From positions 1-27,466 of the IMG/VR virus record IMGVR_UViG_3300025727_000528: a stretch of 27,466 nt of DNA; one strand, 5' to 3'. The stretch comes from a virus. Position numbers and translations under genes: made by a program. Position 1 is the stretch's first letter, and each line of letters opens with the position of its first letter. Positions 5,858 through 24,335 of the stretch are shown piece by piece. The notes under the pieces were generated by a model. The model made no database searches, was not told where the DNA came from, and saw only the letters and a program-made list of their open reading frames with translations.

Positions 5858-6614
5858 ATTTGCAATAATTGGTTCAGAGGGTTTTATAGCACCCCGACAT
5901 AAACAAGCAATAGAAAAGCTAGGAGCTGAAGTATTTTTAAGTTGTGACAAAGAAAGGGATTGGGTTGAGATGTTTAACCATCCAGATTTTGATGAAGTAA
6001 CACATGTTTCTATTTGTACTCCTAATTATCTACATTCAGTCATAACTCGTGAAGCTCTGCTTAAAGGAAAGAAAGTCTTATGTGAAAAGCCTTTGAGTAT
6101 AAACGGAACTGAAGGATTAGATGGGGTTAAGACTGTGCTTCAATTAAGATATCATCCAGAACTTCAGAAGATAAACAAACCTAAGGAATTACAAGTAACC
6201 GCTAAGATGTTTAGAGATGATAAGTATTGGAAGTCTTGGAAAGGTAATGAAGTAATGTCAGGTGGGATATTATATAATCTTGGTGTTCATTATGTTGACC
6301 TCGCTATCTTCTTACTTGGAGACTCTTGGGAGATTATAGATGTATATAAGACAGATAAGAAAGTAACTGCAACAGTAAGATTTGGAGAAAGTTTAGCTAA
6401 CTTTCATATAGAAGTAGTAAATAATAGAGATGAGCAAGGTCGTAAGCTCATAGCTGATGGAAAAGAAATAACATTATCAAATCAAGACAATCTCTCTTAT
6501 GAAGATTTACATACTGAGGTATACAAAGAGTTCCTAGCTGGTCGAGGTATAGGAATAGATGAATCAGAGAAAAGTCTTAAACTAATAAGTGCAATATGTC
6601 AATACAAAAAGTAG
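5847..6614 (+). CDS. Gfo/Idh/MocA-type oxidoreductase, WbpB/WlbA-like
   Basis: An NAD(P)-dependent sugar oxidoreductase of 255 residues. The N-terminus KFAIIGSEGFIAPRHKQAI (4-22), the segment VSICTPNYLHS (54-64), CEKPL (79-83) with catalytic K81, VLQLRYHPEL (97-106), YWKSWKG (127-133) and GGILYNLGVHYVDL (139-152), with N144, H148 and D151, together match WbpB/WlbA. That enzyme oxidises C3 of UDP-GlcNAcA to the 3-keto sugar used by WbpE. The C-terminal YEDLHTEVYKEFLAGRGIGI is also typical. It is about 60 residues shorter than WlbA. Its neighbours, the WbpA-like gene and the DegT aminotransferase, are the enzymes before and after it in that pathway. Confidence 0.85.
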   Translation: MKSKFAIIGSEGFIAPRHKQAIEKLGAEVFLSCDKERDWVEMFNHPDFDEVTHVSICTPNYLHSVITREALLKGKKVLCEKPLSINGTEGLDGVKTVLQLRYHPELQKINKPKELQVTAKMFRDDKYWKSWKGNEVMSGGILYNLGVHYVDLAIFLLGDSWEIIDVYKTDKKVTATVRFGESLANFHIEVVNNRDEQGRKLIADGKEITLSNQDNLSYEDLHTEVYKEFLAGRGIGIDESEKSLKLISAICQYKK

Positions 6615-6829
6615 AAGAAGAAATAGAAAAAGCAGTATCCAAAATCAGTATTGATGATTGGAGGGAGATATTTGAGAAACAAGGTCTAGGATATTTAATT
6701 AGTAGTGTGCCTTCAAATAAAGATGTTTTAATATTTAGACAAGGAGACAGATATGCTCACTACAGTTTCAAGACATTATTAAACGTGAATAAGCCTAATG
6801 AACCGATATGTGTTCAAAAGATTAAATAA
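6596..6829 (+). CDS. small hypothetical protein in the sugar cassette, 77 aa
   Basis: A 77-residue acidic then mixed protein that begins with a charged helix (VEEEIEKAVSKISIDDWREI) followed by probable beta strands (VLIFRQGDRYAHYSF). No family is recognised. It overlaps the oxidoreductase by 19 bases, and the next likely start lies one base after its stop, so it is embedded in the operon. It could be a small partner of the neighbouring sugar enzymes, but nothing in the sequence shows this. Confidence 0.55.
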   Translation: MSIQKVEEEIEKAVSKISIDDWREIFEKQGLGYLISSVPSNKDVLIFRQGDRYAHYSFKTLLNVNKPNEPICVQKIK

Positions 6830-6830
6830 T

Positions 6831-7877
6831 ATGCAAACACAATGTAAACGCTGTGTAATGGACGGAAGTGCAACTGAGATAGTCTTTACAGACACAGGTT
6901 GTAACTTCTGTGACACAGCAGTAAAACAAGAGAAGATAAGATTGAGTGAGATTAAGAATCACAGGAAAGTTATAGATGCTATTAAAAAAGCAGGTAAGGG
7001 TAAGAAGTATGACTGTCTTCTTGGTCTTTCTGGGGGTGTAGATAGCTCCACTTGTCTTATGAAGTTAGTAGAGAATGGGATAAGACCTCTATGTTTCTCA
7101 CTAGACAACGGCTGGAATGACCCTAAAGCAGATGCAAATGTAGAGAGATTAGTAAAGAAAGCAGGAGTAACACATATCAATCATAAAATAGACTTAGAGA
7201 AGTTCAAAGAATTACAGACAGCTTTCTTAAGAGGAGGTATAAAGAATGTAGAAGCAACAACAGACCATATACTCTTTGCCCTTACATATAAAATGATAGT
7301 AGATAACAAACTCAAGTATGTAATATCAGGTGGTAATCAGGCAACTGAAAGTATAATGCCAGCTTCTTGGGGTGAAGATGCAAGAGATTTATACTGGATT
7401 AAAAGTGTATATAAGGCTATAATAGGTAGGAAACTAACAGGATTACCAACTATCTCACTACTCAGAGAGCAATACTATCGCCTCTTTAAAAAGTTTAAGA
7501 CTATCAACTTACTTGACTACTACACTTATGACAGAGAAGAAGCTATTAAGAAACTTCAAGAGTGGTGTGGATATGAACCTTATGGGGAAAAACATTGTGA
7601 AAGTGTATGGACTCACTGGTTTCAGAACTATTATTTGTTTGAGAAGTGGGGAATTGACAAAAGAAAAGCACATCTCTCTTCTCTTATAATGTCAGGACAG
7701 ATGACAAGAGATGAAGCGTTACATGAAATAAGTAAATGTCCTGTGTACCCAGAGCTAGGGATAGAGCAGAAAGTAATGAGATATCCTAAAAGGTCGTATG
7801 ATGACTATCCTAATTCAAGGAAAGTTAGAAGATTAGTAAGTAAATTATATCGTTATGCAAAATTATTGGTTTCATAG
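6831..7877 (+). CDS. N-acetyl sugar amidotransferase (WbpG/PseA family)
   Basis: The product (348 aa) belongs to the ATP-PPase group that turns an N-acetyl group on a sugar into an acetamidino group. The N-terminal CKRCVMDG (5-12) and CNFC (24-27) form the four-cysteine metal site typical of N-acetyl sugar amidotransferases, and LGLSGGVDSST (64-74) is the PP-loop that binds ATP. FSLDNGWN and VISGGNQATESIM are further family segments. I chose ATG 6831, not the upstream 6798 start, because it puts the cysteine motif at the very N-terminus and abuts the upstream stop. WbpG works with a HisH/HisF-type ammonia-delivering pair; none is in this window. Confidence 0.88.
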   Translation: MQTQCKRCVMDGSATEIVFTDTGCNFCDTAVKQEKIRLSEIKNHRKVIDAIKKAGKGKKYDCLLGLSGGVDSSTCLMKLVENGIRPLCFSLDNGWNDPKADANVERLVKKAGVTHINHKIDLEKFKELQTAFLRGGIKNVEATTDHILFALTYKMIVDNKLKYVISGGNQATESIMPASWGEDARDLYWIKSVYKAIIGRKLTGLPTISLLREQYYRLFKKFKTINLLDYYTYDREEAIKKLQEWCGYEPYGEKHCESVWTHWFQNYYLFEKWGIDKRKAHLSSLIMSGQMTRDEALHEISKCPVYPELGIEQKVMRYPKRSYDDYPNSRKVRRLVSKLYRYAKLLVS

Positions 7878-8727
7878 AATCGCCCCGTCATTAGGAGAGT
7901 TGGAAGGAACTCCTGATGATGTATGGGGAACTGAAGATTATTATTTACTAGATGGGAGTATTGAAGATATTGAAGCTCCAACAGTATTCTTTGGTCTTTA
8001 TGGACTCAATGACTTCTACACCCTATGGCGACACAAAGGATATAAAGCTATTCTCTGGGCTGGTTCAGATATCCGCCACTTCCAAAATGGTTACTTCCTA
8101 GATGACGCAGGTAATATAAGAATAGACTCAACACCACTAGCACAATGGATAGACAAGAACTGTGATAACTGGGTAGAGAATGAGGTTGAGTATCAAGCAT
8201 TATTAGAGATGGGAATAACAGCTAAGGTATGTCCGTCTTTTATGGGTAATGTAGATGATTATAAAATAGAATATAAACCATCAGAAAGACCTCAAGTATA
8301 TCTAAGTGTTAGTGGAGATAACTTTCAACTTTATGGCTGGGATATTGTAGAACAGATAGCAGACCAGTGCCAAATAGACTTTCATTTATACGGCAACACA
8401 GTAGAATGGAAAACTAAACACTCAAATGTATTTGTGCATGGTCGAGTACCCAAAGAGCAAATGAATGAAGAGATAAAGAAAATGCAGTCAGGTCTTAGGT
8501 TGTGTGCCTTTGATGGTTTCTCTGAGGTATTAGCCAAGAGTGTACTATGGGGTCAATATCCTATAACCTTTGAGAGTTTCAAATATAAACACATAGATGG
8601 CTTTAGAAACCTTAAGCACTTGGTGCAGATACTAAACAGGTTAAGACTTAAGACAAAACCAAATGAATTAGGGAGGACTTATTACTTAAATACTTTAAAT
8701 AAATACTTATGGAATCAGAAAAAGTAA
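7855..8727 (+). CDS. putative glycosyltransferase (GT-B-like), 290 aa
   Basis: The N-terminal half has alternating beta-alpha segments (APTVFFGLYGL, KAILWAGSDIRHF) and the C-terminal half contains VFVHGRVPKEQMNEEIKKM and then LCAFDGFSEVLAKSVLWGQY. A 'G.V....M......' segment followed by an E-containing segment resembling 'E....A..EA...G.P' is the usual sugar-nucleotide-binding C-terminal part of GT4-like GT-B enzymes. The match is by pattern only. The protein is shorter than typical GT4 enzymes (350-400 aa). Its place directly after the amidotransferase (23-base overlap) and before a second transferase-like gene fits transfer of the cassette's sugar product. Confidence 0.6.
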   Translation: MQNYWFHRIAPSLGELEGTPDDVWGTEDYYLLDGSIEDIEAPTVFFGLYGLNDFYTLWRHKGYKAILWAGSDIRHFQNGYFLDDAGNIRIDSTPLAQWIDKNCDNWVENEVEYQALLEMGITAKVCPSFMGNVDDYKIEYKPSERPQVYLSVSGDNFQLYGWDIVEQIADQCQIDFHLYGNTVEWKTKHSNVFVHGRVPKEQMNEEIKKMQSGLRLCAFDGFSEVLAKSVLWGQYPITFESFKYKHIDGFRNLKHLVQILNRLRLKTKPNELGRTYYLNTLNKYLWNQKK

Positions 8728-9629
8728 ATCATTTTATGTACTGTCCTTTCACAGGATTGGGACTATATAACGGACATAGAGGTAAGAGATGGCTCAAGAA
8801 TAGGATTAAGATATTCAAGCAGTTTGTCTCCCCTTCCCTACTGGCACAGACCAATAAAGACTTCATTCTGTGGATTTCGTGGCGTCATAGCGATAGGGGA
8901 GAGGGGATTATTGACGAGTTTAAGCGGTATTTAGACGAAAGGTTTGAAAAGGTCGTATTTACTTATTCTGGTGTCTGTTTCTGGGATGATAAGTATTCTG
9001 ACGAGATAGCAAGAGAAAGACTGATAGATGCTATACATGGTTCTATGGGTGATTTACTTAATGTGATGAATGATAGCGATACAGTGCTTATGACGATACA
9101 GCCTAGTGACGATTGTTACAACACAAGTGCAGTAGCTAGAATACAGGAGGCATTGAAAGATGATACTGTTCAATTTGTAGGATATAAGAGTGGTTATGTA
9201 ATGGATTATAAAACTGGTGAGATTAGAGAATGGAATCCAACAACAACTCCCCCATTCTATACAATTAAGTTTACTAAGGAGACATTTGGTATGCACCACC
9301 CACTTAAACACTTAGAATACACAGGACCATACAAATCACACGAGTATGTCAAAGATTATCTTAATGGACAGTATTTTCTAGAAAGAGGTTTTATAGTCGG
9401 AACTCACGGGGAGAATATCTCAACCATATTTAAACATCCATTCACAGGTGAGAAAGTTGGAGAGGGGACAAAACATTTCTTTGGATTAGAGGATACTGGA
9501 CTATTGAAACTTAACACAAGTATTCGCAAGACAGTAATGAGAAAACTTCCCCACAACTGGCAGAAGAAACTACGTTATTTATTAGGGGAACGCTTTTATG
9601 CAAAACTATATGATTTCATTCGTTCGTAA
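8709..9629 (+). CDS. putative rhamnosyltransferase-type glycosyltransferase, 306 aa
   Basis: The start FMYCPFTGLGLYNGHRG, then WLKNRIKIFKQFVSPSLLAQT (WL...R...F....PSL.aQT) and FILWISWRHSDRG resemble the putative rhamnosyl transferase family (Pfam Rhamno_transf). A D-D pair in IQPSDDCYN (130-138) occupies the place of the metal-binding DxD motif of GT-A folds. The sugar transferred need not be rhamnose; here it could be the amino sugar made by the cassette. The C-terminus is basic with amphipathic helices (RKLPHNWQKKLRYLLG), possibly for membrane association. It overlaps its upstream neighbour by 19 bases and its downstream neighbour by 32. Confidence 0.65.
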   Translation: MESEKVNHFMYCPFTGLGLYNGHRGKRWLKNRIKIFKQFVSPSLLAQTNKDFILWISWRHSDRGEGIIDEFKRYLDERFEKVVFTYSGVCFWDDKYSDEIARERLIDAIHGSMGDLLNVMNDSDTVLMTIQPSDDCYNTSAVARIQEALKDDTVQFVGYKSGYVMDYKTGEIREWNPTTTPPFYTIKFTKETFGMHHPLKHLEYTGPYKSHEYVKDYLNGQYFLERGFIVGTHGENISTIFKHPFTGEKVGEGTKHFFGLEDTGLLKLNTSIRKTVMRKLPHNWQKKLRYLLGERFYAKLYDFIRS

Positions 9630-10251
9630 TTGGTTTAAGACCACAAAAAAGCATACACAGTATTGGCAGAACAGGATTATGGATTGGGATAAAGACTATC
9701 TTAGCTCTTGGAATCATCCTCACAGGCAATTCTTATCTATCTTGCTCACTCGTTTCCCTTGGATGTCACTACTAGAGGTCGGTTGTGCTAGTGGTCCTAA
9801 CTTATTAAACATAGTTAAGAACTTTCAAGGTAAGCAGGTAGGTGGTATAGATATAAGTGAAGATGCAATAGATTTAGCTAAGAAGACATTTCAGGGTGCA
9901 TTTTTAAAGGTCGGCTCGGTAGAAGATATTATGATGTCAGACAATTCAACTGATGTTGTACTATCAGATATGGCTTTGATTTATGTATCAAATCCTAACA
10001 AAGCAATTAAAGAGATAAAGCGTGTGACTCGTAAGTATGTACTATTTTCTGAGTTGCACAGTGAGAGTTGGTATGGTAGAATGAGACTAAGATTAACTTC
10101 AGGTTACCATGCTCATAACTACAAGAAATTATTAACAAAGCATGGATTCTATAACTTAGAGTTCATTAAAATGACTGAGAAGATGTGGCCAGGGGGAAAT
10201 CCTCAAAAAGATTATGGTTACTTTATTCTAGGTCAAAAATCTAAATATTAA
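9598..10251 (+). CDS. SAM-dependent class I methyltransferase, 217 aa
   Basis: Motif I is SLLEVGCASGPNLLNI (57-72), followed by GGIDISEDAIDLAKKTF (82-98) for the SAM-ribose acidic loop and DVVLSDMALIYVSNP as motif II/post-II. This is a Methyltransf_11-type Rossmann methyltransferase. In surface-polysaccharide clusters such enzymes O- or N-methylate sugars or cap a chain end. The substrate cannot be read from the sequence. It is the last gene of the cassette, starting 32 bases inside the preceding gene and ending two bases before the next start. The overlap supports membership in the same transcript. Confidence 0.8.
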   Translation: MQNYMISFVRNWFKTTKKHTQYWQNRIMDWDKDYLSSWNHPHRQFLSILLTRFPWMSLLEVGCASGPNLLNIVKNFQGKQVGGIDISEDAIDLAKKTFQGAFLKVGSVEDIMMSDNSTDVVLSDMALIYVSNPNKAIKEIKRVTRKYVLFSELHSESWYGRMRLRLTSGYHAHNYKKLLTKHGFYNLEFIKMTEKMWPGGNPQKDYGYFILGQKSKY

Positions 10252-11100: not shown

Positions 11101-12235
11101 AGCAGTACAAGGTGGAACATCAGCAAGTAAGACAGTAAGTATAGTTCTATGGCTCATAGCTCTAGCACAAAGTGATAAGAAACCAACATTAACATCTATA
11201 GTTTCTGAGTCTTTTCCTCATTTAAAGAGAGGTGTTATGAGAGACTTCTTAATGATAATGCAAGAGCATGGTTACTTTGTAGACAAGAGATGGAATAAGT
11301 CAGACTATACATATACATTTGAAACAGGAAGTAAAATAGAGTTCTTTTCAGTAGACCAACCCAGTAAAGTAAGAGGACCAAGACGTGATAGACTATTCAT
11401 CAACGAGGCTAACAACATACCTTATGAAGCCTTTGACCAATTAGAGGTCAGAACTAAAGACTTTATATACCTAGACTGGAATCCAACCAATGAGTTCTGG
11501 TTCTATGAAGAAGTTAAAAGTAGAGATGACACAGAGCTTATAATCCTTACATACTTAGACAATGAAGCTCTTAGTAAAGAGATTGTAGATTCTATTGAAC
11601 AGCGTAAAGAGAAGAAGTCTTGGTGGAAAGTATATGGTGAAGGACAGCTAGGAGAAGTAGAGGGTAAAATATACAAAGGTTGGAATATAATAGATGAGAT
11701 ACCTAAACATGCCAGACTAGAACGTAGAGGTATGGACTTTGGCTATTCAAATGACCCTACAGCTTTGATAGATATCTATAAGTATGATGGTGGTTACATA
11801 TTAGATGAAGTTCTTTATAGAAAAGGAATGCTGAATAAGCAAATAGCCGATACAATAAATAACCAAGAGCAAGATACACTAGTAATAGCTGACAGTGCAG
11901 AGCCTAAGAGTATTGATGAGATAAGAGGTTATGGTGTTAATATAATAGGAGCAGAGAAAGGAGCTGACTCAGTAAGAAATGGTATACAGGTAGTACAAGA
12001 CCAGAAGATATCTATAACCAAAAGGTCGACTAACACAATCAAAGAGTATCGTAACTACATGTGGAAGAAAGATAAGGACGATAACTTTATAAGTCCTAAT
12101 GTGCCAGAAGATATCTTCAATCACTCTATGGATGCAATAAGATATGGGCTATCTTCAGTACTCAAACAGCCGAACTTCAAGATGCCATCACAATCAGCAC
12201 CAGTTAACCCTTATTATAATGAACTAGGAATATGA
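11045..12235 (+). CDS. terminase large subunit (PBSX/Terminase_3-type)
   Basis: The DNA-packaging motor, 396 aa. The ATPase has a Walker A GGTSASKT at 23-30, preceded by the typical RIRAVQ, and a Walker B-like LFINEAN at 117-123. A coupling motif WNPT lies at 145-148. The C-terminal nuclease domain shows MDFGYSNDPTA (230-240, D231), IADSAEP (281-287, D283) and HSMDAIRYGL (360-369, D363), the three acidic positions of the RNase H-like fold. ATG 11045 is the only ATG that leaves the ATPase domain intact, although it lies inside the small terminase gene. The length is close to the family norm of about 400-430. Its stop overlaps the next start by four bases. Confidence 0.92.
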   Translation: MYQKTQATTKISQLSKRIRAVQGGTSASKTVSIVLWLIALAQSDKKPTLTSIVSESFPHLKRGVMRDFLMIMQEHGYFVDKRWNKSDYTYTFETGSKIEFFSVDQPSKVRGPRRDRLFINEANNIPYEAFDQLEVRTKDFIYLDWNPTNEFWFYEEVKSRDDTELIILTYLDNEALSKEIVDSIEQRKEKKSWWKVYGEGQLGEVEGKIYKGWNIIDEIPKHARLERRGMDFGYSNDPTALIDIYKYDGGYILDEVLYRKGMLNKQIADTINNQEQDTLVIADSAEPKSIDEIRGYGVNIIGAEKGADSVRNGIQVVQDQKISITKRSTNTIKEYRNYMWKKDKDDNFISPNVPEDIFNHSMDAIRYGLSSVLKQPNFKMPSQSAPVNPYYNELGI

Positions 12236-12423
12236 TAATAGAAATAGATGTACCAGATAAAGGAGAGACTAACGCCTTTAAATATCAAGAGATAATAACT
12301 GCTCTTATTGGTTCTGGTGCATTTGATTTACAGAACGGTAAAGCTGTGTTACACTTTGACCAGAGTGGTACGTTCCAAGGTGTTCAATTAGACTATTGGG
12401 CTTTTAGGAGGAAGAAAAAATGA
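12232..12423 (+). CDS. small hypothetical protein, 63 aa
   Basis: A 63-residue protein with a beta-rich first half (MIIEIDVPDKGE), a central helix (KYQEIITALIGSG) and a basic end (WAFRRKKK). No family is recognised. It is joined to its neighbours by 4-base overlaps on both sides (12232-12235 and 12420-12423), so it is very probably translated. The codons for its basic end also provide the Shine-Dalgarno sequence AGGAGG for the next gene. Confidence 0.6.
   Translation: MIIEIDVPDKGETNAFKYQEIITALIGSGAFDLQNGKAVLHFDQSGTFQGVQLDYWAFRRKKK
12407..12412 (+). promoter_or_regulatory. strong Shine-Dalgarno AGGAGG before the acetyltransferase
   Basis: AGGAGG lies at 12407-12412, within the last codons of the preceding gene, seven bases before ATG 12420. 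It is the clearest ribosome-binding site I found. Most other genes here, including terminase, portal and capsid, have only AT-rich sequence upstream of the start. It may be a by-product of the Arg-Arg codons it overlaps. Confidence 0.5.
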
Positions 12424-12767
12424 ATGAAAGAAAGTTTGTATTCATAGGAGACGAGGTAGTAATGGGAAAGAATGTAAACTATCAGGAGTTTGTGTTTATT
12501 CCGAATGGAGTTACAATAGGTGATAATGTATTCATAGGACCACATGTTTGCTTTACAAATGACAAACATCCGCCATCTAAAGGTAAAGAGTGGAGACCGA
12601 TAATTGTGGAGGATGATGTGATTATAGGAGCTAATGCTACAATATTACCAGGAGTCACTTTAAGAAAAGGTTGTGTTGTTGGCGCAGGTGCAGTAGTAAC
12701 AAAGAACGTTAAGAGTTGTACGACTGTTGTCGGTAATCCTGCAAAACCACTTGACAACCAAATCTAA
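12420..12767 (+). CDS. left-handed beta-helix N-acetyltransferase (WbpD/WlbB-like)
   Basis: The 115-residue product is made of hexapeptide repeats ([LIV]-G-x4): VTIGDNVFIGPHV (31-43), VIIGANATILPGV (67-79) and CVVGAGAVVTKNV (85-97), ending VVGNPAKP (103-110). FTNDKHPP (45-52) followed by W58 matches the 'F.ND.yP' loop of WbpD/WlbB, which N-acetylate the 3-amino group of UDP-GlcNAc(3NH2)A. It is shorter than those (about 190 aa), having fewer coils. This is the step that the cassette at 2189-10251 lacks, yet the gene sits between terminase and portal. Other acyltransferases of this fold share the general repeats, so the substrate is inference. Confidence 0.78.
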   Translation: MNERKFVFIGDEVVMGKNVNYQEFVFIPNGVTIGDNVFIGPHVCFTNDKHPPSKGKEWRPIIVEDDVIIGANATILPGVTLRKGCVVGAGAVVTKNVKSCTTVVGNPAKPLDNQI

Positions 12768-12778
12768 CATAGTACACT
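12751..12778 (+). promoter_or_regulatory. putative promoter P3 ahead of the portal transcription unit
   Basis: TTGACA (12751-12756) and TACACT (12773-12778) are 16 bp apart, overlapping the end of the acetyltransferase gene. The -35 is perfect; the -10 matches TATAAT at four of six positions. The same pair of hexamers occurs at 19541-19569, again just ahead of a terminator-like hairpin, which makes chance less likely. Confidence 0.45.
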
Positions 12779-12803
12779 TAATTTAATAATATCCTAACCC
12801 CCA

Positions 12804-12840
12804 AAGGGCGGAGTCTTTAACCAGACTTCGCTCTTATTTT
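12804..12840 (+). terminator. Rho-independent terminator / leader hairpin before portal
   Basis: A 13-bp stem pairs 12804-12816 with 12823-12835 across a 6-base loop (TTAACC), with two G-U pairs and no mismatches, followed by ATTTTAT. This is a strong intrinsic terminator. It ends just before the portal ATG at 12848. Because a promoter-like element lies upstream of it (12751-12778), it may act as an attenuator in the portal leader rather than only ending upstream transcripts. Confidence 0.8.
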
Positions 12841-12847
12841 ATATAAT

Positions 12848-14572
12848 ATGCCAGATGAAACACCAGATTTAGTTACAGATACATTAATGGAACGTCTTAT
12901 AGCAGAGAAGACAGCCTCAACTGAGTTACAAGAACGTAAACATGAGGATTGGAAAGATAACTATGAACTGTATCGTAATAAAATAAAGACAAATCGCTTA
13001 ACACAACGTCAAGCGGTTAATATCCCGTTGATGAAAGAGACAATTAAAACTCTTCTATCTAAGATAGATGATGCACCAAACATAGAATGGCAAGAACAAG
13101 GAGGAGATGAAGACAAAGAAATACTATTCCAAGAGATGTGGGATGCTAACTTTAGAGAAAACAAACTAGAACTCACAGATGTGATAGATAAGAAGAATGT
13201 ATTGCTTTATGGGATAAGTACAAAGAAACTTAATATATCTAATCAAGGAATAGATATAGACACACTCGATGTCTATGATATTACCTTTGACCCGTTGATG
13301 AATGTAGGGGATATAGAATCAGCACGGTATGTAGTCCAGCAAAACATATTTAGGACTATACAAGAGATATTAGCTGATGATAGATACACAACAGAGGGTA
13401 AGAATGAGCTAAAGAGATGGCTTGATTCAACACCAGGACTTACACAGAGTGAAGAAAATAAGAAAATCTTTGAAAAGAAGATGGAAAGGTTAGAATCTAT
13501 GGGTGTAGAACATTCTGACTTTGCTTTGATTGCAGGGGGGGATAGACTTGTAAATCTTACAGAACATTACACACAAGTATGGAACTCTGATAAGAAAGAA
13601 TGGGAAAGGCGAGTTGTTGTGTATGCAGATAACCAAGTAGAACTGTCTAATGATACACTTAAAGACTTAATAGGTGTTGATTTCTGGCCGTTCACAGTAT
13701 GGGTAGAAGACCCTGAAACTACTGATATATACTCTGATTCAGTAGCAGACCTAGTAAGAACACCAAATAAGGTAATGAATGTATGGTTCTCACAACTTGT
13801 GGAGAACAGGACATTAAAGAACTTCCAAATGCACTGGTTCTTACCTAATCAGAACTACACACCTCAAACTTACACACCAGGACCAGGAGTTATGCTTCCA
13901 GCTCCACCAGGAGAAGATATTAATAAAGTTATAAAACCAGTAGAAGTATCAGGACTTGATGACACAATGCCAGCTATTCAAACTCTTACAAATATAGTAG
14001 AGAGGGGAACTGGCGCTACTGCTATTGAGAAAGGGGAGAGTGAAAAGGGAAGTCAAACTCTTGGAGAAATAGAGATACTTACAGGTAAGTCAGTAGAAAG
14101 GACTATTGGTATGGCTAAGTTCTATAAGATGGCTTGGTATGAGATAGCTTGGAAGTGGGCTAAACTTATGCACCAAAACAAACCAAGAGTTATAAGCCTA
14201 TACAAAGTAGGACGAAGCGGTAAGTTATATTCAAAGAAAGTATACGCTTCTGACTGGGCTTCTAAAGATGGTTATGAGCCACAAGTAATATCATCTTCTG
14301 AACAAGAACAAGAGTCATTCAAGACAATTCAGAAGTTCACATTTATTCTTCAACAGTTCCCTGAAAACCAAGCTCTTAAAGAGATAGCACAAAAGAGAAT
14401 GCTTGATGTTCTTAATCTGTCTCCTGAAGAGCTTAAACAGGTAGAAGAAGCTGAGACGGGGCAACCAGTACAGCAAATATTAGGTCCACAAGGAGAACAA
14501 TCTCCTCAGCAACCTGATAATACTGGGCTTGTTGGAGACATACAGAACAGTTTAGCCGAATTAACAGCATAG
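12848..14572 (+). CDS. portal protein, 574 aa
   Basis: Forms the dodecameric ring at one capsid vertex through which DNA passes. Evidence is position (after the large terminase), length, and the portal-like sequence pattern: an N-terminal segment ending RQAVNIPLMKETIKTLLSK, followed by DVYDITFDPL and IESARYVVQQ, the 'wing' region, and TLTNIVERGTGATAIEKG in the central part. The C-terminal 40 residues are Gln/Pro-rich and acidic. The layout is closer to podovirus-type portals than to the HK97-type. It begins eight bases after the leader hairpin tail, in the context TATAATATG, with no Shine-Dalgarno. Confidence 0.8.
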   Translation: MPDETPDLVTDTLMERLIAEKTASTELQERKHEDWKDNYELYRNKIKTNRLTQRQAVNIPLMKETIKTLLSKIDDAPNIEWQEQGGDEDKEILFQEMWDANFRENKLELTDVIDKKNVLLYGISTKKLNISNQGIDIDTLDVYDITFDPLMNVGDIESARYVVQQNIFRTIQEILADDRYTTEGKNELKRWLDSTPGLTQSEENKKIFEKKMERLESMGVEHSDFALIAGGDRLVNLTEHYTQVWNSDKKEWERRVVVYADNQVELSNDTLKDLIGVDFWPFTVWVEDPETTDIYSDSVADLVRTPNKVMNVWFSQLVENRTLKNFQMHWFLPNQNYTPQTYTPGPGVMLPAPPGEDINKVIKPVEVSGLDDTMPAIQTLTNIVERGTGATAIEKGESEKGSQTLGEIEILTGKSVERTIGMAKFYKMAWYEIAWKWAKLMHQNKPRVISLYKVGRSGKLYSKKVYASDWASKDGYEPQVISSSEQEQESFKTIQKFTFILQQFPENQALKEIAQKRMLDVLNLSPEELKQVEEAETGQPVQQILGPQGEQSPQQPDNTGLVGDIQNSLAELTA

Positions 14573-14573
14573 T

Positions 14574-16406
14574 ATGGCAAGCGAGTTCCTTAAAAAAGTA
14601 GATGCGGAACTGAAACAAAAGGTTCGTGATAAGAAACAGGACGCAAAGGATGAGATTAAGACAGGTCTCCTATCTTTTATGTTGGAGAATGTAAGTGACA
14701 AGATAGTAAGTGGATTCACAAAAGCATTAAGTTCACTAAAACTACCAACGCCCAAAGTTGAGGTAAAACCCCCTGTTGTTAATGTAACAGTACCTGACAT
14801 CGTAATACCCGAAATAAAGGCACCCGAGGTCAAAATACCCCAAATAAGTGTACCTGAAGCTAAGGTTACAGTGGAACTTCCTGATATGCCTGAGATTAAG
14901 ATACCTGAAATAAAAGTCCCTACACCTCAGGTAACTGTGAATGTAGAGAAACCTGACACACCAATCATTCCACCTATTGAGATACCAGAGGTAATGATGC
15001 CTGATGAAATGACTGTGAAAGGTGGGGACAGTCCTCTACCAGTTAAAATGGTGGATGATGAGGGTAAGCCTATTAGTTTCCCTAGTGGAGGTGGAAATAG
15101 TAGTAAGATAGGTAAATCAAGTATCTTGAATGCAGATGGAAGTAAAATCAATCCAGCAACAGAAGAAAAGCAAAACACTTTAATTGCTAATCAAACCAAC
15201 AACACACAGAAAGTACAGATAACAGCACAAGATAGTCCATCAATAGATGCCTTTGCTCGTTGGAGAGTATCTAATCCTGAGACAATATTTGATTCAAAGC
15301 AATTATGGGATAGCGCACCTCTATTTTGGGATGATTCAGAAGTATCAGGTGGTTCTACAACATCAGTCCATTCCACAGACACAGCTTCAACTGTAATAGG
15401 TGTAGCACTCAATACAGCAGGACGTAGAGTACGGCAGACATTTATGCGGTTTAATTATCAGCCTGGGAAGAGTCAGTTAATTTTTGCAACAGGAACACTT
15501 GATAAATTAGGAGGTGAAACAGGTATCACAAGAGGGTGGGGATATTACGATGATGATAATGGAATATTCTTAAAAGACAATGAAGGAACAGTACAGTTTG
15601 TTATACGTTCTAAAGCAACAGGCAGTGTGGTAAACGACCCTGTATCTCAAGCTAGTTGGAATCTTGATACAATGGATGGAAATGGAGCTAGTGGGATTGA
15701 TTTAGACTTTACCAAATCACAAATAACTATTATAGACCTTGAATGGCTTGGTGTTGGACGAGTACGAGCTGGATTCGTCATAGCAGGTATTCCTATTTAT
15801 GTTCATGAGTTTAATCATTCTAATGTTCTTAGTGGAGTATATATGTCTACACCTAACTTACCGATGCGTTATGAGATAGAAAATGATGGAACTGGCGTAG
15901 CTTCAACACTTGAACATATTTGTTGTTCTGTAATGTCAGAAGGAGGATTGCAGAAGACTGGGATATTAAGACACTTTGATTCAGGTGCGGTATCAGGTTT
16001 ATCGGCAGGAACTTCTTATGCTATTTTAGGCATAAAACTGAAATCAACTCATCTAGATGCATCAGTGATTATTGAAAATATATCAGCACTTGCTACTACA
16101 CAGAATGACCAAGCACACTGGGATTTGATTTTAAATCCTACGGTAGCAGGAACATTTACTTATGCAGATGCTACAAATAGTGCATTACAAACAGCAACAG
16201 GAGCATCAACAAATACAATTACAAATGGGATTGATATAGATGGAGGATACTTTTCAACAGTAGCACCAACAAGTATTACGACACCAAATGCACTTAGATT
16301 AGGAGCTAAAATAGATAATACAGTAGATGAAATTGTAATTATCGTAACACCAATTACCAACAACATCACAGTCCACGCATCAATGACAATAAGAGAATTA
16401 TCATAA
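14574..16406 (+). CDS. large virion protein with V-x-V-P stalk, 610 aa
   Basis: Residues 1-55 are helical and charged. Residues 57-147 are a Pro/Val/Ile repeat region (PDIVIPEIKAPEVKIPQISV) with a proline every few residues, probably an extended stalk. The segment MPDEMTVKG then PLPVKMVDDEG closes it. From about 219 (SPSIDAFARWRVSNPETIFD) to the end is a large beta-rich domain of a type seen in many uncultured phages, with no known function to me. It starts one base after the portal stop. A head fibre, decoration or tail-spike-like role fits, but none is proven. The gene at 16719 shares the same N-terminal plan with a different C-terminus. Confidence 0.65.
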   Translation: MASEFLKKVDAELKQKVRDKKQDAKDEIKTGLLSFMLENVSDKIVSGFTKALSSLKLPTPKVEVKPPVVNVTVPDIVIPEIKAPEVKIPQISVPEAKVTVELPDMPEIKIPEIKVPTPQVTVNVEKPDTPIIPPIEIPEVMMPDEMTVKGGDSPLPVKMVDDEGKPISFPSGGGNSSKIGKSSILNADGSKINPATEEKQNTLIANQTNNTQKVQITAQDSPSIDAFARWRVSNPETIFDSKQLWDSAPLFWDDSEVSGGSTTSVHSTDTASTVIGVALNTAGRRVRQTFMRFNYQPGKSQLIFATGTLDKLGGETGITRGWGYYDDDNGIFLKDNEGTVQFVIRSKATGSVVNDPVSQASWNLDTMDGNGASGIDLDFTKSQITIIDLEWLGVGRVRAGFVIAGIPIYVHEFNHSNVLSGVYMSTPNLPMRYEIENDGTGVASTLEHICCSVMSEGGLQKTGILRHFDSGAVSGLSAGTSYAILGIKLKSTHLDASVIIENISALATTQNDQAHWDLILNPTVAGTFTYADATNSALQTATGASTNTITNGIDIDGGYFSTVAPTSITTPNALRLGAKIDNTVDEIVIIVTPITNNITVHASMTIRELS

Positions 16407-16407
16407 T

Positions 16408-16692
16408 ATGGCAAACGTAGTAATAACATCAACAGCAAATAGTATTAAAGTAGATTTAGGAGTTTACAGTTCTGCTCTTGGATATGACAAAGTGACAATA
16501 AGAAAGGATAAACTTATAGATATTAAATTAAAGAATGGAGATACTTTTGTTGAGGCAGTAGTTTTACAGGATGGAAAGTGGACAGTATCATATAATACAG
16601 TGGCTAACGCACTTGTAGTTGATACAATAGACACAGAAGCACCGACAGATAATTCTGATTTATATGACAAATTAATAGCTTTAATAGCGTAA
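16408..16692 (+). CDS. small structural-type protein, 94 aa
   Basis: A beta-rich 94-residue protein (MANVVITSTANSIKVDLGVY), ending in a short helix (DLYDKLIALIA). It starts one base after its neighbour stops and is flanked by the two large stalk proteins, so it is likely a virion component or a cofactor of one of them. No family is recognised. Confidence 0.55.
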   Translation: MANVVITSTANSIKVDLGVYSSALGYDKVTIRKDKLIDIKLKNGDTFVEAVVLQDGKWTVSYNTVANALVVDTIDTEAPTDNSDLYDKLIALIA

Positions 16693-16718
16693 ATTATTAA
16701 CAATTAACAACAATTATT

Positions 16719-18206
16719 ATGGCAAATGATGATTTAAACATAGCAAATAATGCTATCAACAACGCACGAGGGAAGATGATAAACAATGAATTTAAGCGAG
16801 ACCGCTCAAACATTGTATCTTCTGTCGCTGCGGAAGTGGCAAGAATGTTTAAGCCATTCTTGAAAGAGATAAGAGAGACAGCACAAGTAGATAAATCAGA
16901 TTTACTAAATGCTCTTTCTCAAATAACAGTAGAGGGAACACCGTCAAATGTGACTGTTCCTGAGATTAAAGTACCAACAATTAACGTACCAGAACCACGA
17001 GTTCATGTAACCGTACCACCTATTAGAGTACCTGATGTGGTTATGCCTGACGAGATGAACATACGGGGATTCGTAGGACTAATGGGCGTTGATTTACAAA
17101 ATCCTTTACCAGTTCAGTTAAGGGATGAGAATGGTGCAATAGTTAATTTATTAGAAAACATCACAGCTATTTCAGGTGGAGGTGGCGGAGGTGGAAGTAG
17201 AGGAACTGTTAAGATTATAAATGACAGTGGAAGTCCAGTACCAATTACAGGTACACTTTCAGCTACACTTTCAGCAGATACAGGAAGTGGGGAAATAGGT
17301 GGTGAAACACTAAGAATAGTACAAGCAACAAATGCGATATCTTCTGTAAATGTAGTAGATGCTTTTGGTTCTACTTCAGCAACAGGAGTATTTAATGCAG
17401 ATAACAGAGTAAGAGTATCAGTAGAAACAGGAGGTTCAGGACTTACAGACGCAGAACTTAGAGCTACATCAGTACCTGTATCACAAGTATCTGGTGCAAC
17501 AGCAAGTGTTAATGTAGTAAGTACAGTAGGATTAACTGATACAGAGCTTAGAGCTTCAACATTGGATGTCAAACAAGTAAGTGGGGCATCATCAAGTGTA
17601 AATGTTCTCAGCACAGTAGGATTAACAGACACCGAGTTAAGGGCTTCTACACTAGATGTAAAACAAGTATCAGGGGCTATTTACTCTGTAGAAGTAACAA
17701 ATATTATAGCTTCAACTACAGCAATTATAGGAGACAAAGCAGCAGATGAAGCAGATGGTGACTCTAATCCAATCAAGGTAGGAGGTGTAGCAAGGACAGC
17801 TAATGCTTCAGCAGTAGGAAACGGTGATAGAGTATCAGCAACATTTGATACAAGAGGAAGACAAGTAGTGTTACCTTATAATGTAAGAGATTTAAGAGCT
17901 ACAGCTTATGTATCACTAGCTACTGGTACGGAAGCTACACTATTAGCAGCTTCAGCAGGAGAGTTCCACGACCTTGTATGGGTAATGGGAGCTAATCAAT
18001 CAGATGCAGCTGTCTTAGTAGATATTAGAGCTGTTACAGCAGGTAATGTTTCTATGAGTCTAGAGATACCTGCAAACAGTACCGCTGGTATAGCTCCACC
18101 GATACCATACCCACAAGCAGATACAGGTAATAACTGGACTGTAGATATGGGAGATATTACAGGTACAACAGTAGATATAACGGCATTATTCACTAAAGAA
18201 GTATAA
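16719..18206 (+). CDS. second stalk-type virion protein with 30-aa tandem repeats, 495 aa
   Basis: Residues 1-70 are helical. Residues 78-112 repeat the V-P stalk seen in the 14574 product (NVTVPEIKVPTINVPEPRVH) and end in MPDEMNIRG, then PLPVQLRDENG, as in that protein. A run of seven glycines (153-159) is a flexible hinge. Three 30-residue repeats (GLTDTELRASTLDVKQVSG and variants) lie at about 241-330. The C-terminal part (KVGGVARTANASAVGNGDR onward) is a beta-rich domain frequent in environmental phages. It is probably a fibre- or decoration-type virion protein. The last base of its stop is also the first base of the next start. Confidence 0.65.
   Translation: MANDDLNIANNAINNARGKMINNEFKRDRSNIVSSVAAEVARMFKPFLKEIRETAQVDKSDLLNALSQITVEGTPSNVTVPEIKVPTINVPEPRVHVTVPPIRVPDVVMPDEMNIRGFVGLMGVDLQNPLPVQLRDENGAIVNLLENITAISGGGGGGGSRGTVKIINDSGSPVPITGTLSATLSADTGSGEIGGETLRIVQATNAISSVNVVDAFGSTSATGVFNADNRVRVSVETGGSGLTDAELRATSVPVSQVSGATASVNVVSTVGLTDTELRASTLDVKQVSGASSSVNVLSTVGLTDTELRASTLDVKQVSGAIYSVEVTNIIASTTAIIGDKAADEADGDSNPIKVGGVARTANASAVGNGDRVSATFDTRGRQVVLPYNVRDLRATAYVSLATGTEATLLAASAGEFHDLVWVMGANQSDAAVLVDIRAVTAGNVSMSLEIPANSTAGIAPPIPYPQADTGNNWTVDMGDITGTTVDITALFTKEV
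17439..17708 (+). repeat. three 90-bp tandem repeats within a virion gene
   Basis: Copies begin at 17439, 17529 and 17619, exactly 90 bases apart, so each adds 30 residues in frame. The second and third copies are nearly identical at protein level (VGLTDTELRASTLDVKQVSG in both), while the first is more divergent (SGLTDAELRATSVPVSQVSG). At DNA level the copies differ mostly at third codon positions, which indicates older duplication held by selection on the protein. Confidence 0.8.
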
Positions 18207-18499
18207 TGGACTTTCAAAAAATCCTAACAAAACAAGAAGAGTATAGAAAAAAGCGAGGTAAATACTTCCAAGTTCTTAAAGGCGGCAAAAAACCTAAAAG
18301 TAGAAATGATGCGGAAGAATACAAAGATGTAGATTATACAGATATACCACCAGATATTGAAATTCATACACATGAAGGTACTGATGAAATTGGTTTTACA
18401 GTGGTAGAAAGAAAAACAGAGTTAGGAAAAGATTATGTAAAACAAACAGGTCATGGAATAGGTCGTACAAAGGATTGGCAAGAAGTAATTAAAATATAA
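18206..18499 (+). CDS. hypothetical protein, 97 aa
   Basis: A strongly charged 97-residue protein: a basic N-terminal helix (ILTKQEEYRKKRGKYFQVLK), an acidic middle (VDYTDIPPDIEIHTHEGTDE) and a mixed C-terminus. No family is recognised. Its start overlaps the preceding stop by one base, and the next gene begins two bases after its end, so it belongs to the structural operon. Confidence 0.55.
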   Translation: MDFQKILTKQEEYRKKRGKYFQVLKGGKKPKSRNDAEEYKDVDYTDIPPDIEIHTHEGTDEIGFTVVERKTELGKDYVKQTGHGIGRTKDWQEVIKI

Positions 18500-18501
18500 T
18501 T

Positions 18502-19239
18502 ATGGCACTAACAGATAATTTACAAGGATACTGGGACTTAGATGAAGAGAGTGGTACACGTGCAGACAGTACTGCTAATGGTAATACTCTTCAAGATGCG
18601 AATACAGTTCTTTTTGGTACTGGAATTATTGATAATGCGGCGGATTTTGAAGAAGCTAATGATGAACGTCTCACTATTACTGATGCCGCCCAAACAGGAC
18701 TAGACATAGCTGGTTCAGATATGACTGTATCAATGTGGGTTAAAATGGAGTCACAACCACCAGGAGGGAATCAAATAATGTTCCTTCAGAAGTCTCCACA
18801 ATCAGGTAATGAAGGGTATGCAATAACATATCATGATACTTTAGGTCTTCGTTTTGCAATCAATAATGGTGGTAATGAGACAAAGAGTTTTACCAAAGAC
18901 TTTACTAACGGCACTTGGTTTCATATTGTATGTCGTTACACACTAAGTTCAAAGGAGTTCTCCGTATGGTTTGACGGAGTAGAACAAACACCACAGACAG
19001 GGACAAAGGTAGGTGCATCTGACAACTCAGATGATTTTGTTATAGGTGCTGATGCAACTGTTTCAGCACCAACTATGGATGGACTTATAGATGAAGTGGG
19101 AATATGGGATAGTGCTTTAACTGATGAAGAAATAGGTCAATTATACAATGACGGAGACGGTTTAGCTTATCCTCTAGTTCCAGCGGCAGGAGGTAGCACT
19201 ACACCAGTACCAACTTTATTAACATTAAACGTAGGTTAA
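18502..19239 (+). CDS. LamG/concanavalin A-like lectin-fold protein, 245 aa
   Basis: The sequence follows the LamG-like jelly-roll (Laminin_G_3) plan: LQGYWDLDEESGTRADSTANG at the start, then MTVSMWVKM, then NGTWFHIVCRY, FSVWFDGV and finally MDGLIDEVGIWDSALTDEEI. Each of these blocks is a hallmark of the family. A short Ser/Thr/Pro-rich tail follows (about 227-245). Such domains bind carbohydrate or decorate phage heads and tails. In a phage carrying a sugar cassette, binding of host surface glycan is an attractive idea but only inference. Confidence 0.8.
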   Translation: MALTDNLQGYWDLDEESGTRADSTANGNTLQDANTVLFGTGIIDNAADFEEANDERLTITDAAQTGLDIAGSDMTVSMWVKMESQPPGGNQIMFLQKSPQSGNEGYAITYHDTLGLRFAINNGGNETKSFTKDFTNGTWFHIVCRYTLSSKEFSVWFDGVEQTPQTGTKVGASDNSDDFVIGADATVSAPTMDGLIDEVGIWDSALTDEEIGQLYNDGDGLAYPLVPAAGGSTTPVPTLLTLNVG

Positions 19240-20517: not shown

Positions 20518-21840
20518 ATGGCAACATTAAGTAATTTTGGTGAACAATTTGCATCTAAGGTACTCCGAAAGGTATACCAGAGTGCAGTTGTTGACGCTAT
20601 TGCAAACAGAAACTACGAAGGAGACATTAAAAAGCCAGGAGATAGAGTAAACATTCTATCTTTCCTTAACGATATACTACTAAGTGACTACACAGTTGGG
20701 TCAGACATGCCGTCTGAAACAATCGTAGACCACGAAGATATACTTATCGTAGAGAAAAGAAAGAGTTACAACTTCTCTCTTGACCGATTGGAAGACCTCT
20801 TCACATACGGTGGAGATATTCCTGATGTCCTTGTTGAGAACTCTGCTAAAGTACTTGAGCGAGAAATTGATACATATGTATTGAATAAGACCGCTGAAAA
20901 TGCTAAAGCAGGTTCATGGATTGGTACAAACATCATAGTAGCTGGCTCAGGTCAGACTATGGCATCTATTGCTACAACAGCAACAGGCGGAACAGTAACA
21001 ATCTCAACCAACGTAGTGAATGGAGGTGGAGTATCACCTGCTGAAAACCCAGCAGATGGTCTTCTTTACATGACAGGGTTTGAAGGTTCAGACCTATTCA
21101 AAGGATTCCGACTTCGTTCAACAGCAGCCTTTGTTTCTCCTTGGTATAGAATATCAGGAGTTACAAGTTCAATCTCAGCTACTCTTACAGAGTGGGATGA
21201 GGCAACAGGAGGTTCTGACTTTGCAGAAGGAGACACACTACGTGGACTCTTCGGTGGAGACGGTATTTCATTCCCTAAATATGGAGATGGAAATGCTAAA
21301 TTGACAACAATGGCAAGTCTTGGATGGGAGATTCAAGCAGCAATCGCAACAGCGGTTACAGCTTCTACTATCTATGACCAAACAACTCTTCTATCAGAAG
21401 CGTTGGATGAAAACGAAGTTCCAACGGAATCTCGTAAAATCACACTACCGCCATCAGGTATCACTATGCTTCGTCAAGCTAGTGAACTACAACCTACAGG
21501 AATTGCTGAGATTTTCTCAGGTACAGTTCTAAATGGTCGTGTAATGCGACTTGGTGGGTTTGATGTTCACTCAGCAGCAGGTTCAAGAGTATCTACTAGA
21601 ACAGGTCGCTCAACAGCGGCAGGATTTGGTGGAGACCTTGCACTAACGGCAGGAGTAACAGGTTACCAGATTCCAGCAAACCAAATCGGTTTCGTTACAT
21701 TTGCAGACAAATGGAGTGAGTCCCGAGTTGTAGATGCTGAAAAGCAATTTGCTAAACTATATCAAGGACTATTCCTCTACGGAGCGAAAGTACCTGATTT
21801 AGCAAGGAAGCTTGGAGCTATGCTCTTTGGTAGTTTTTAG
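20518..21840 (+). CDS. major capsid protein, 440 aa
   Basis: Identified by position after the scaffold, length and sequence style: N-terminal arm (MATLSNFGEQFASKVLRKVY), an E-loop-like segment (VGSDMPSETIVDHEDILIVE), a long spine-helix-like region (VLVENSAKVLEREIDTYVLN) and a C-terminal region with YGAKVPDLARKLGAMLFG. This fits an HK97-fold coat protein. Residues of roughly 135-240 are Gly/Thr/Ser-rich beta sequence and may be an inserted surface domain, as in P22-like coat proteins. In this gene several codons appear GC-richer than in the sugar cassette, as expected for a highly expressed gene. No Shine-Dalgarno precedes the ATG. Confidence 0.8.
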   Translation: MATLSNFGEQFASKVLRKVYQSAVVDAIANRNYEGDIKKPGDRVNILSFLNDILLSDYTVGSDMPSETIVDHEDILIVEKRKSYNFSLDRLEDLFTYGGDIPDVLVENSAKVLEREIDTYVLNKTAENAKAGSWIGTNIIVAGSGQTMASIATTATGGTVTISTNVVNGGGVSPAENPADGLLYMTGFEGSDLFKGFRLRSTAAFVSPWYRISGVTSSISATLTEWDEATGGSDFAEGDTLRGLFGGDGISFPKYGDGNAKLTTMASLGWEIQAAIATAVTASTIYDQTTLLSEALDENEVPTESRKITLPPSGITMLRQASELQPTGIAEIFSGTVLNGRVMRLGGFDVHSAAGSRVSTRTGRSTAAGFGGDLALTAGVTGYQIPANQIGFVTFADKWSESRVVDAEKQFAKLYQGLFLYGAKVPDLARKLGAMLFGSF

Positions 21841-22802: not shown

Positions 22803-24136
22803 AAGCATTAAGTTTCATATCAGGAGAGAGTTCATCCCCTGACTTATCAGATGGTGGTTTCTCACCAGACTCATTTGGTATAAACTTATCCAAGACAAAA
22901 GGGATGCTTTATTTCACAGAGAGTCCAACAGAAAGAGCTGGTGTGACTCTCACAGGTAATATAGTAGCCTCTTGCGTAGACCCTGCACTTACAGGTAATG
23001 ATGCTTATTATATAGCAGATGATGGTTCTTTCTATACATATAATGGAACTACATTTACTGATAAAAGAGCTGCCGCAGCAAACTATACTTATCAACTTGG
23101 TTCAACAGATATGATTCCTTTTAATGATGGAAACTTCTACTTCACCTCAAAGACAACAATAGGGCAGTTTGATAACAATATGGGAACTGTTACAGAAGAT
23201 TGGTGGAGTGGATTAGATTCATCATATCGTCATCCTGTAGAAGTGGTGGAAAAGAAGCTCTTTGTAGGAGATAAAAACCTAATTCTTTACTATGATGGCA
23301 CAACTTCAGGTACAGCGTTTACCCTACCAGCAGGACAGAATATAACCTCATTACGAAAACACCCTAATGGTACTTCCCTGCTCGCCTTTACAGGTGGTAC
23401 AGCAGACTTCTCACACACTAGAAATGGTGCAGGGAAAGTGTATTACTGTGACCCTACTTTACAAGGAGCATCAGTAGATGGGTGGAGTAGAGAAGTAGAG
23501 CTAGAGGCACAGGTGGAGGGTACAAGGAATGTAGGAGGTACTATATTTGTAACTTGGGGTAAGAATGTAGGTATATTTGATGGTAATGGACTAACTCCCT
23601 TAAATAAGGTATTAGAAACATCAGGTACTACTTACTCACAAAGTATGACTAATATGGAGGATATCTTTGTTATAAGAGATGGTCGGTTGGTTCTATGTTA
23701 TGGGAATCTAGGTAATGGAAATGCTTGGTGGAAACTACACAGAGAAGCAGTAGATGATATAAACAATCTTCATTATAAAGGAGATAATGTTCTTTTAATG
23801 GCAACAGATAATGACGACTTAAATGAAATAGACTTAGATACTGCTGGTACAAATGGACAGTTTAGAACTAATAGAATGACTTATAATAGTGAGGTAGAGG
23901 TTAAAAGATTTGATTTAATACATGATGAAACTACTATAAGTACAGTTGCTACTTTTTCTGAAGTAAAATTAGATGGCTCAACAAATATAATAGAGAGTAA
24001 AGAATACTCAACAGCTACACACTTTACACGCTTCCCCTCAGATATTAAATCAAATATGTTTCAGTTTGGAATAAATCCATCATCAGGAGCAATAGGATAT
24101 AAATATATAAGAATAGGATATGACCCAATCAAATAA
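22784..24136 (+). CDS. tail-type structural protein, beta-propeller-like, 450 aa
   Basis: A beta-rich protein with repeated blocks of about 40-50 residues that each contain an aromatic and Gly/Asp turn (YYIADDGSFYTYNGTTF, LFVGDKNLILYYDGT, IFVTWGKNVGIFDGNGL, DNVLLMATDNDDLNEIDLD). Such repeats suggest a beta-propeller, like tail nozzle or hub proteins of podoviruses. The N-terminal segment (ALSFISGESSSPDLSDGGF) is extended. The location between the capsid gene and the adaptor-like gene fits. The assignment rests on pattern and context only. Confidence 0.55.
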   Translation: MASTEIKALSFISGESSSPDLSDGGFSPDSFGINLSKTKGMLYFTESPTERAGVTLTGNIVASCVDPALTGNDAYYIADDGSFYTYNGTTFTDKRAAAANYTYQLGSTDMIPFNDGNFYFTSKTTIGQFDNNMGTVTEDWWSGLDSSYRHPVEVVEKKLFVGDKNLILYYDGTTSGTAFTLPAGQNITSLRKHPNGTSLLAFTGGTADFSHTRNGAGKVYYCDPTLQGASVDGWSREVELEAQVEGTRNVGGTIFVTWGKNVGIFDGNGLTPLNKVLETSGTTYSQSMTNMEDIFVIRDGRLVLCYGNLGNGNAWWKLHREAVDDINNLHYKGDNVLLMATDNDDLNEIDLDTAGTNGQFRTNRMTYNSEVEVKRFDLIHDETTISTVATFSEVKLDGSTNIIESKEYSTATHFTRFPSDIKSNMFQFGINPSSGAIGYKYIRIGYDPIK

Positions 24137-24335
24137 CATAGCACCAGAAGTACCAAATGAAAACCACATTCTTAACATAGAAGGGTTTATAGAGACCTTT
24201 ACAGAAGCACCCACTTATACACCAAAGAAACTCTCACAACAGGTCGTCTTAGTGAGAGCAGGGGGAAGCACATCAGCTTACTTCTATGACACACTTAATA
24301 CACAATGGAATCAGGTAACCTTAACTTCAATATAA
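24120..24335 (+). CDS. small hypothetical structural protein, 71 aa
   Basis: A 71-residue protein with an extended, Asn/Pro-rich N-terminus and a beta-hairpin-like C-terminus (QVVLVRAGGSTSAYFYDTLN). It overlaps the upstream gene by 17 bases and is one base from the downstream start, so it belongs to the tail operon. The C-terminal 'VRAGGSTSAYFYD...WN' pattern recurs in small environmental phage proteins of unknown role. Confidence 0.55.
   Translation: MTQSNNIAPEVPNENHILNIEGFIETFTEAPTYTPKKLSQQVVLVRAGGSTSAYFYDTLNTQWNQVTLTSI

Follow-up and report, generated by a model that had tools for sequence, protein, structure and literature searches.

The viral record IMGVR_UViG_3300025727_000528 of IMG/VR was analysed over its positions 1 to 27,466, a stretch of 27,466 nucleotides referred to here as the window, and the analysis concerns two genes directly behind the portal gene whose products, P1 and P2, share an N-terminal anchor with a V-x-V-P stalk and carry different C-terminal heads. 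The window covers part of a tailed-phage genome; its terminase matches PF17288/PF04466, its portal matches SU10_portal in a Pfam profile search (E 7e-14), a 233-aa protein encoded at 24337 matches SU10_adaptor (E 1.6e-6), and the protein at 20518-21840, the major capsid protein (MCP), matches major head protein profiles. Judged from its sequence, the virus is thus an uncultivated, short-tailed phage whose portal and adaptor are of the SU10 type. The gene order is terL, a 63-aa open reading frame (ORF), a 115-aa ORF, portal, P1, gp94, P2, gp97, LamG, gp106, a scaffold-like gene and MCP; here and below, scaffold, nozzle and ejection protein are named by gene position, without a profile match. 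The portal found no match in 50,697 phage records, and the lineage is therefore one without an isolate in those records. A genome of 40,032 bp that is nearly identical to the window (G001) represents the virus of the window and is apparently complete; G001 and a related genome, G004, which corresponds to the contig of locus L061, both end in 126-127 bp repeats, which suggests that the two genomes are complete. The original prediction, made on the letters of the window, had placed the two genes at 14574 and 16719, and both ORFs indeed start there, encoding 610 and 495 aa (Table 1).

Table 1. Features of the window from P1 to the LamG-domain gene
Feature	Coordinates	Strand	Basis
P1, stalked fibre protein 1 (putative), 610 aa	14574..16406	+	ORF; phrog_1645 over residues 205-608
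P1 N-terminal helical part, aa 1-56	14574..14741	+	AlphaFold2 (AF2) helices; related by profile to P2-type N-termini
P1 V-x-V-P stalk, aa 57-140	14742..14993	+	sequence; shuffle test
P1 MPDEM/PLPV block, anchor end, aa 141-176	14994..15101	+	L035 DNA homology ends at 15102
P1 head, aa 205-610	15186..16403	+	phrog_1645; aa 236-456 predicted concanavalin-A-like
gp94, 94 aa, small protein behind P1 head	16408..16692	+	ORF
P2, stalked fibre protein 2 (putative), 495 aa	16719..18206	+	ORF
P2 N-terminal helical part, aa 1-75	16719..16943	+	AF2 helices; profile comparison
P2 V-x-V-P stalk, aa 76-108	16944..17042	+	sequence; shuffle test
P2 MPDEM/PLPV block, aa 109-147	17043..17159	+	BLASTP; shuffle test
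P2 mid-protein, three 90-nt direct repeats (30 aa each)	17438..17707	+	DNA homology to L003, L035 lost here
P2 C-terminal jelly-roll domain (predicted), aa 373-495	17835..18203	+	AF2; structure comparison
gp97, 97 aa, between P2 and LamG	18206..18499	+	ORF; 48% identical in L003
LamG-domain protein, 245 aa, third candidate surface module	18502..19239	+	PF13385

The common anchor of P1 and P2 was confirmed by several comparisons. BLASTP aligned the two proteins with 40% identity over 73 aa (E 3e-13), and the anchors scored 141 against each other vs 41 ± 7 for shuffled sequences (z 13.9), a score reached in none of 500 shuffles. When parts were compared separately, the MPDEM/PLPV block (z 10.5) and the stalk (z 6.3) again exceeded all 500 shuffles, which bears out the proposal that a V-x-V-P stalk and an MPDEMxxxG block are common to both proteins; the heads, with z -1.0, fell below the mean of 500 shuffles, so that homology between them is ruled out and the two proteins do diverge completely beyond the anchor, as had been proposed. 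The idea of a shared helical N-terminus failed at the pairwise level, where the helices of P1 and P2 alone showed no similarity above chance (z 0.5, 500 shuffles), and held at the profile level, where hhalign related P1-type to P2-type N-termini with a probability of 86% (E 5e-6), or 95% (E 2.6e-8) with L061 added. AF2 places helices at residues 2-21 and 27-53 of P1, with a predicted local distance difference test (pLDDT) of about 50-68, and at residues 2-55 and 59-69 of P2. The second block, originally written PLPV..xDExG, is present in both proteins, but is better given as PLPVxxxDxxG (PLPVKMVDDEG in P1, PLPVQLRDENG in P2). Prolines of the stalk are often, and in P1 mostly, five residues apart. 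Searches by sequence of P1, P2 and the P1 anchor against solved structures returned names at chance level only, and no phage fibre.

The P1 head belongs to phrog_1645, a family of virion structural proteins found in cyanomyoviruses and in HMO-2011; residues 205-608 match profile positions 29-438 of 440 (E 8.2e-89), and the head is 38.8% identical to the HMO-2011 protein. In an AF2 model built from 22 sequences, most 10-residue blocks from aa 251 onwards have a pLDDT above 80, and aa 236-456 match concanavalin-A-like folds (best VIA Z 16.8, to 3d6e; root-mean-square deviation 2.7 over 171 residues). The top VIA matches of this predicted model are largely GH16-type folds, and a GH16 enzyme was considered as an identity for the head. 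The catalytic motif of GH16 enzymes is E-x-D-x(x)-E. While the fold would fit, this motif is missing in all 15 members of the P1-head family examined, and none of the 15 has a GH16 match in Pfam; we therefore call the head lectin-like rather than enzymatic, and predict for it, from the model, a concanavalin-A-like lectin fold. A search of the head profile by sequence against solved structures gave chance-level names only. Compared with predicted viral structures, the P1 model matched proteins from several viruses: one of 418 aa in HFTV1 (E 1.5e-15), others in HHTV-1, HHTV-2 and HGTV-1, and, in S-TIM5, proteins annotated as 'virion structural protein and packaging'. By its length, the HFTV1 match was identified as gp20, the single 418-aa coding sequence of that virus, which adjoins the MCP.

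P2 consists, behind its anchor, of a repeat-bearing middle and a small C-terminal domain. The tip is conserved among relatives at about 50-57% identity, whereas in L003 and L035 the middle no longer aligns at the DNA level. AF2 predicts a small jelly roll for the tip (pLDDT mostly 82-93 from aa 391), whose best structural matches include phage cement proteins, among them that of KHP40 (7dou; Foldseek E 7e-6, VIA Z 8.5) and that of Pam1 (7eel; VIA Z 7.8), as well as the HFTV1 turret; on the model, the tip is a jelly roll of a common type. Its profile, too, returned names at chance level only when searched by sequence against solved structures. In four relatives (L062, 4591-4959; L069, 8017-8376; L064, 2979-3626; L071, 5947-6399), the P2 tip recurs just upstream of scaffold/MCP as a stand-alone or short copy, perhaps a decoration protein.

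Relatives of the virus carry the same anchor with other heads. In L035, DNA aligns to the window by blastn up to 15102, that is, up to the end of the P1 anchor at aa 176, and again from 16693, just before P2; L036-L038 are near-identical to L035 and show the same break and resumption. The L035 protein retains the P1 anchor at 67% identity and ends in a phrog_8198 head (E 9e-23), which is also found in L039 (E 3e-41) and L049 (E 1e-34), in place of the phrog_1645 head of the window. Both head families occur elsewhere free-standing or with other N-termini, without such a stalk, and among the loci examined phrog_1645 is joined to the stalk in the virus of the window only. Overall, heads vary far more than the flanking genes. 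A further candidate for natural swapping, L003, has no mismatch to the window over 11284-16867 (5.6 kb) and about 80-90% identity from 16868 onwards, inside the helical region of P2. This break is possibly a recent crossover or possibly a chimeric contig, since its metagenome, 3300040985, also yielded L031, a divergent strain with 93.7% identity; L003 was therefore set aside as proof, and the case for swapping rests on L035, L039 and L049.

Since these loci had been found through P1 or P2, a survey was seeded on the portal alignment instead. Of 146 relatives, 80 passed the portal scan, and the resulting 81 portal records (window included) formed 63 groups at 95% identity, 11 of which had less than 1 kb downstream and were dropped, leaving 52. 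A stalk protein was found in 43 of the 52 groups, and was the first gene product of at least 150 aa in 41; as the stalk criterion is a motif count, the 43 include one false positive by eye (L206, which has no stalk) and one weak case (L222). Among control ORFs (at least 200 aa, upstream of or including the portal), the same criterion picked out 2 of 185. Where the sequence spans from portal to scaffold/MCP (29 groups), three groups have no stalk protein, 20 have one and six have two; the corresponding figures for the 39 groups with at least 4 kb are 6, 22 and 11. A PLPV-like block is present in 49 of 54 stalk proteins and an MPDEM-like block in 29, with both in order in 28, vs 18 of 431 other ORFs with both blocks. 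The heads of the 53 stalk proteins with a head of at least 80 aa fall into 9 clusters, of 36, 6 and 5 members and six singletons, one of them the P1 head of the window; clustering was by single-linkage BLAST, repeats common to several heads may have drawn the largest cluster together, and some of its members (e.g., L176) give no score with the P2-tip profile. The swapped C-termini that a survey of related phages had been expected to reveal are thus present, and the interpretation of the two proteins as a duplicated anchor with interchangeable C-terminal modules is supported by sequence. Separately, a distant phage (L046, 7959-8942) encodes a 327-aa protein with a V-x-V-P stalk, a Gly linker and an NPLPV block directly behind its portal.

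P1 and P2 have homologous, duplicated anchors, their heads are exchanged among relatives, and their genes stand next to the portal; for their location on the virion, their oligomeric state and their binding to sugar, we infer the following. We lean towards the view that P1 and P2 are paralogous stalked head fibres that would serve adhesion, rather than tail fibres. The shared anchor (helical start, V-x-V-P stalk, PLPV block and Gly-rich hinge) would dock on the particle, most likely on the head shell, and the C-terminal head would point outward and grip the cell surface, probably a glycan; the tip of P1 would be a lectin-type head with the predicted concanavalin-A-like fold, and P2 would end, beyond its repeats, in a small jelly roll. 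Heads would be swapped between phages through recombination at the anchor end, and duplication of the anchor gene in some lineages would place two specificities on one virion. P1 and P2 are encoded between portal and scaffold, outside the tail module, in which a tail slot lies between a nozzle-like 450-aa protein and the adaptor. The slot protein has 71 aa in the window (24120-24335) and 73 aa in L038 and L060, and is larger in L039 (287 aa, Gly_rich_2, phrog_863 at E 2e-34), L071 (332 aa) and G004/L061 (744 aa, Beta_helix and Laminin_G_3, phrog_1980 tail fiber). A separate tail appendage gene beside the adaptor thus coexists with stalk proteins in L039 and L061/G004, which favours a head fibre over a tail fibre; the absence of a stalk protein in 3 of 29 groups fits an accessory head fibre, and the copies of the P2 tip that stand alone upstream of scaffold/MCP were also counted for the head rather than the tail.

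Several points weigh against this reading. No mass spectrometry (MS) or cryo-electron microscopy data were found for this lineage, and AF2 gives the stalk a pLDDT below 50 and the N-terminal helices of P1 and P2 only about 50-75. A stalk inside the capsid or tail tube, or unrelated folds of the two N-termini, was not seen, although the poorly modelled stalk leaves the location unproven. At Z 7.8-8.5, the cement and turret matches of the P2 tip are level with those to polyomavirus VP1 (9.2) and CBM36 (8.4), and the VxVP stretch of L035, L049 and L046 weakly matches a tape-measure profile (E 0.0003-0.0024). Finally, beyond the window G001 has no other visible fibre candidate, so that, with a tail slot of only 71 aa, P1 and P2 could be the tail fibres of this virus. 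Under that explanation, the helical N-terminus would sit on portal or adaptor and the heads would be the primary receptor-binding proteins (RBPs) of the tail; the position of both genes directly behind the portal agrees with it, as does the docking of the long tail fibres of SU10 on the adaptor by their N-termini (PMC9509320). We nonetheless regard tail fibres as an unlikely, if serious, alternative, given the relatives with an appendage gene of their own and those that lack a stalk gene altogether. As relatives fill the slot with tail fibre or beta-helix spike genes of 287-744 aa, the virus of the window, with its 71-aa slot protein, may have a reduced tail fibre.

Improbable in our estimation is a role of the stalk proteins in capsid cement or decoration, mainly to stabilise the shell, with heads that vary by drift. 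The resemblance of the P2 tip to trimeric cement proteins (KHP40, Pam1) and its occurrence on its own upstream of scaffold/MCP would be explained, but 9 unrelated head clusters among 53 proteins on one anchor suggest exchanged specificities more than they do a constant structural role, the P1 head is a large lectin-type fold, and 20 of 29 groups manage with one stalk protein and 3 with none. An internal place for the V-x-V-P part, in a protein of tape-measure or ejection type, is very improbable, since the weak matches to phrog_33360, tail length tape measure (L046, E 0.0003; L049, 0.0014; L035, 0.0024), sit in the N-terminal and stalk part of biased composition, an SU10-type portal and adaptor point to a short tail that lacks a tape measure, the compact beta domains that form the heads are known from other virion proteins, and separate candidate ejection proteins of 597 and 627 aa are present.

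With P1 and P2 taken as head fibres, a comparable two-fibre head is, by analogy, already known from crAss001. The available part of the crAss001 account (PMC10172136) describes gp21 and gp29 as head fibres with their N-termini in hexon pockets, and two binding specificities are thought to result; as proposed for P1 and P2, each virion has two head fibres with short N-terminal anchors and different outward C-terminal domains, and the gene number of gp21 follows that of the portal, gp20, as P1 follows the portal. By contrast, gp21 is a trimer and gp29 a dimer, the two use different hexon pockets, and that part of the account reports no relationship between their anchors (PMC10172136), whereas P1 and P2 have paralogous anchors and a long V-x-V-P stalk. 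A conserved N-terminal anchor joined to a variable outward domain, the trait of head fibres such as phi29 gp8.5 and crAss001 gp21/gp29, is found in P1 and P2 as well. As to HFTV1, gp20, whose predicted fold the P1 head model matches, is listed among the MS-identified proteins of purified virions, and the HFTV1 turrets are stalked capsid knobs with a putative glycan-active domain; the portion of the account seen gives gp20 no place on the virion, and the turret consists of separate proteins, gp30 and gp31, with a deacetylase-like head (PMC12494034). The head spikes of RcGTA are flexible head fibres that bind host capsule polysaccharide and have only a short N-terminus fixed to the head; they differ as a single fibre on a pentameric base protein, and are likened to P1 and P2 by description (PMC7296036). 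SU10 was rejected as a head-fibre model, as its gp10 is described as an Ig-like candidate without density and is not comparable (PMC9509320), and so were Sulfitobacter phage GT1 and Vibrio phage Peru-2, since the term 'head fiber' is absent from both main texts.

Conservation of an anchor with exchange of heads is classic for tail spikes. An account of modular tail spikes and RBPs (PMC10386132) likewise gives a conserved N-terminal anchor and a C-terminus that is often replaced, and papers on Klebsiella phages point the same way; these are tail proteins, whereas the P1 and P2 genes lie between portal and scaffold. In the present case, heads are exchanged on an anchor in the portal-scaffold slot, in a lineage that is isolate-free in the phage collection searched, and one genome holds a paralogous anchor pair. 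Our literature searches showed no earlier account of such stalk proteins, which is not a claim that none is in print. If P1 and P2 are head fibres, two exchangeable adhesion specificities on a phage head become testable, and two widespread families, phrog_1645 and phrog_8198, would be tied to an outward adhesive role, with phrog_1645 gaining a predicted lectin fold. Tentatively, and as a possibility more than an expectation, we propose a lineage-wide socket beside the portal, with a new trimeric V-x-V-P stalk and a PLPV/Gly-rich coupling that would carry at least 9 unrelated adhesin heads; the socket would be duplicated in some phages, giving two specificities per capsid, and heads would pass from one phage family to another at two places, the coupling and the 30-residue repeats.

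The LamG-like gene nearby, suggested as a third surface module, is real, its product matching PF13385 (Laminin_G_3) with E 5e-26 and 92.1 bits (cut-off 27.6), and remains a candidate for that role. LamG proteins at 24-43% identity lie between portal and MCP in L003, L049, L065 and L068, while other relatives have different proteins in this place, so the slot is variable; the tail spike of G004 has a LamG domain as well, in keeping with an adhesive role. With regard to gp94, a chaperone travelling with the phrog_1645 head was considered and rejected, as no relative at E <=1 was found outside the virus of the window among the loci compared.

Three further portal relatives were found in metagenome-assembled genomes (MAGs), namely those of an Elusimicrobia bacterium from a groundwater 0.1 um fraction (L240), archaeon ARS1334 (L241) and bacterium nzgw467 (L242), and their placement is either a hint at the host or the result of a misbinned virus. 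L240, which is outside the survey count, has no stalk gene behind its portal. The 115-aa ORF in the gap between terL and portal (12420-12767) is 50-75% conserved in relatives and resembles, by eye, a hexapeptide-repeat acetyltransferase, the PHROGs that it matches carrying no function. Upstream of terL, a cluster of sugar-nucleotide and glycosyl-transfer genes (2189-10251) encodes a transketolase-like pair, a DegT aminotransferase, Polysacc_synt_2, a GFO_IDH_MocA oxidoreductase and Rhamno_transf, and similar genes were recognized by eye in G004 (L163, L164); the products of this cluster could glycosylate the virion or change the host surface.

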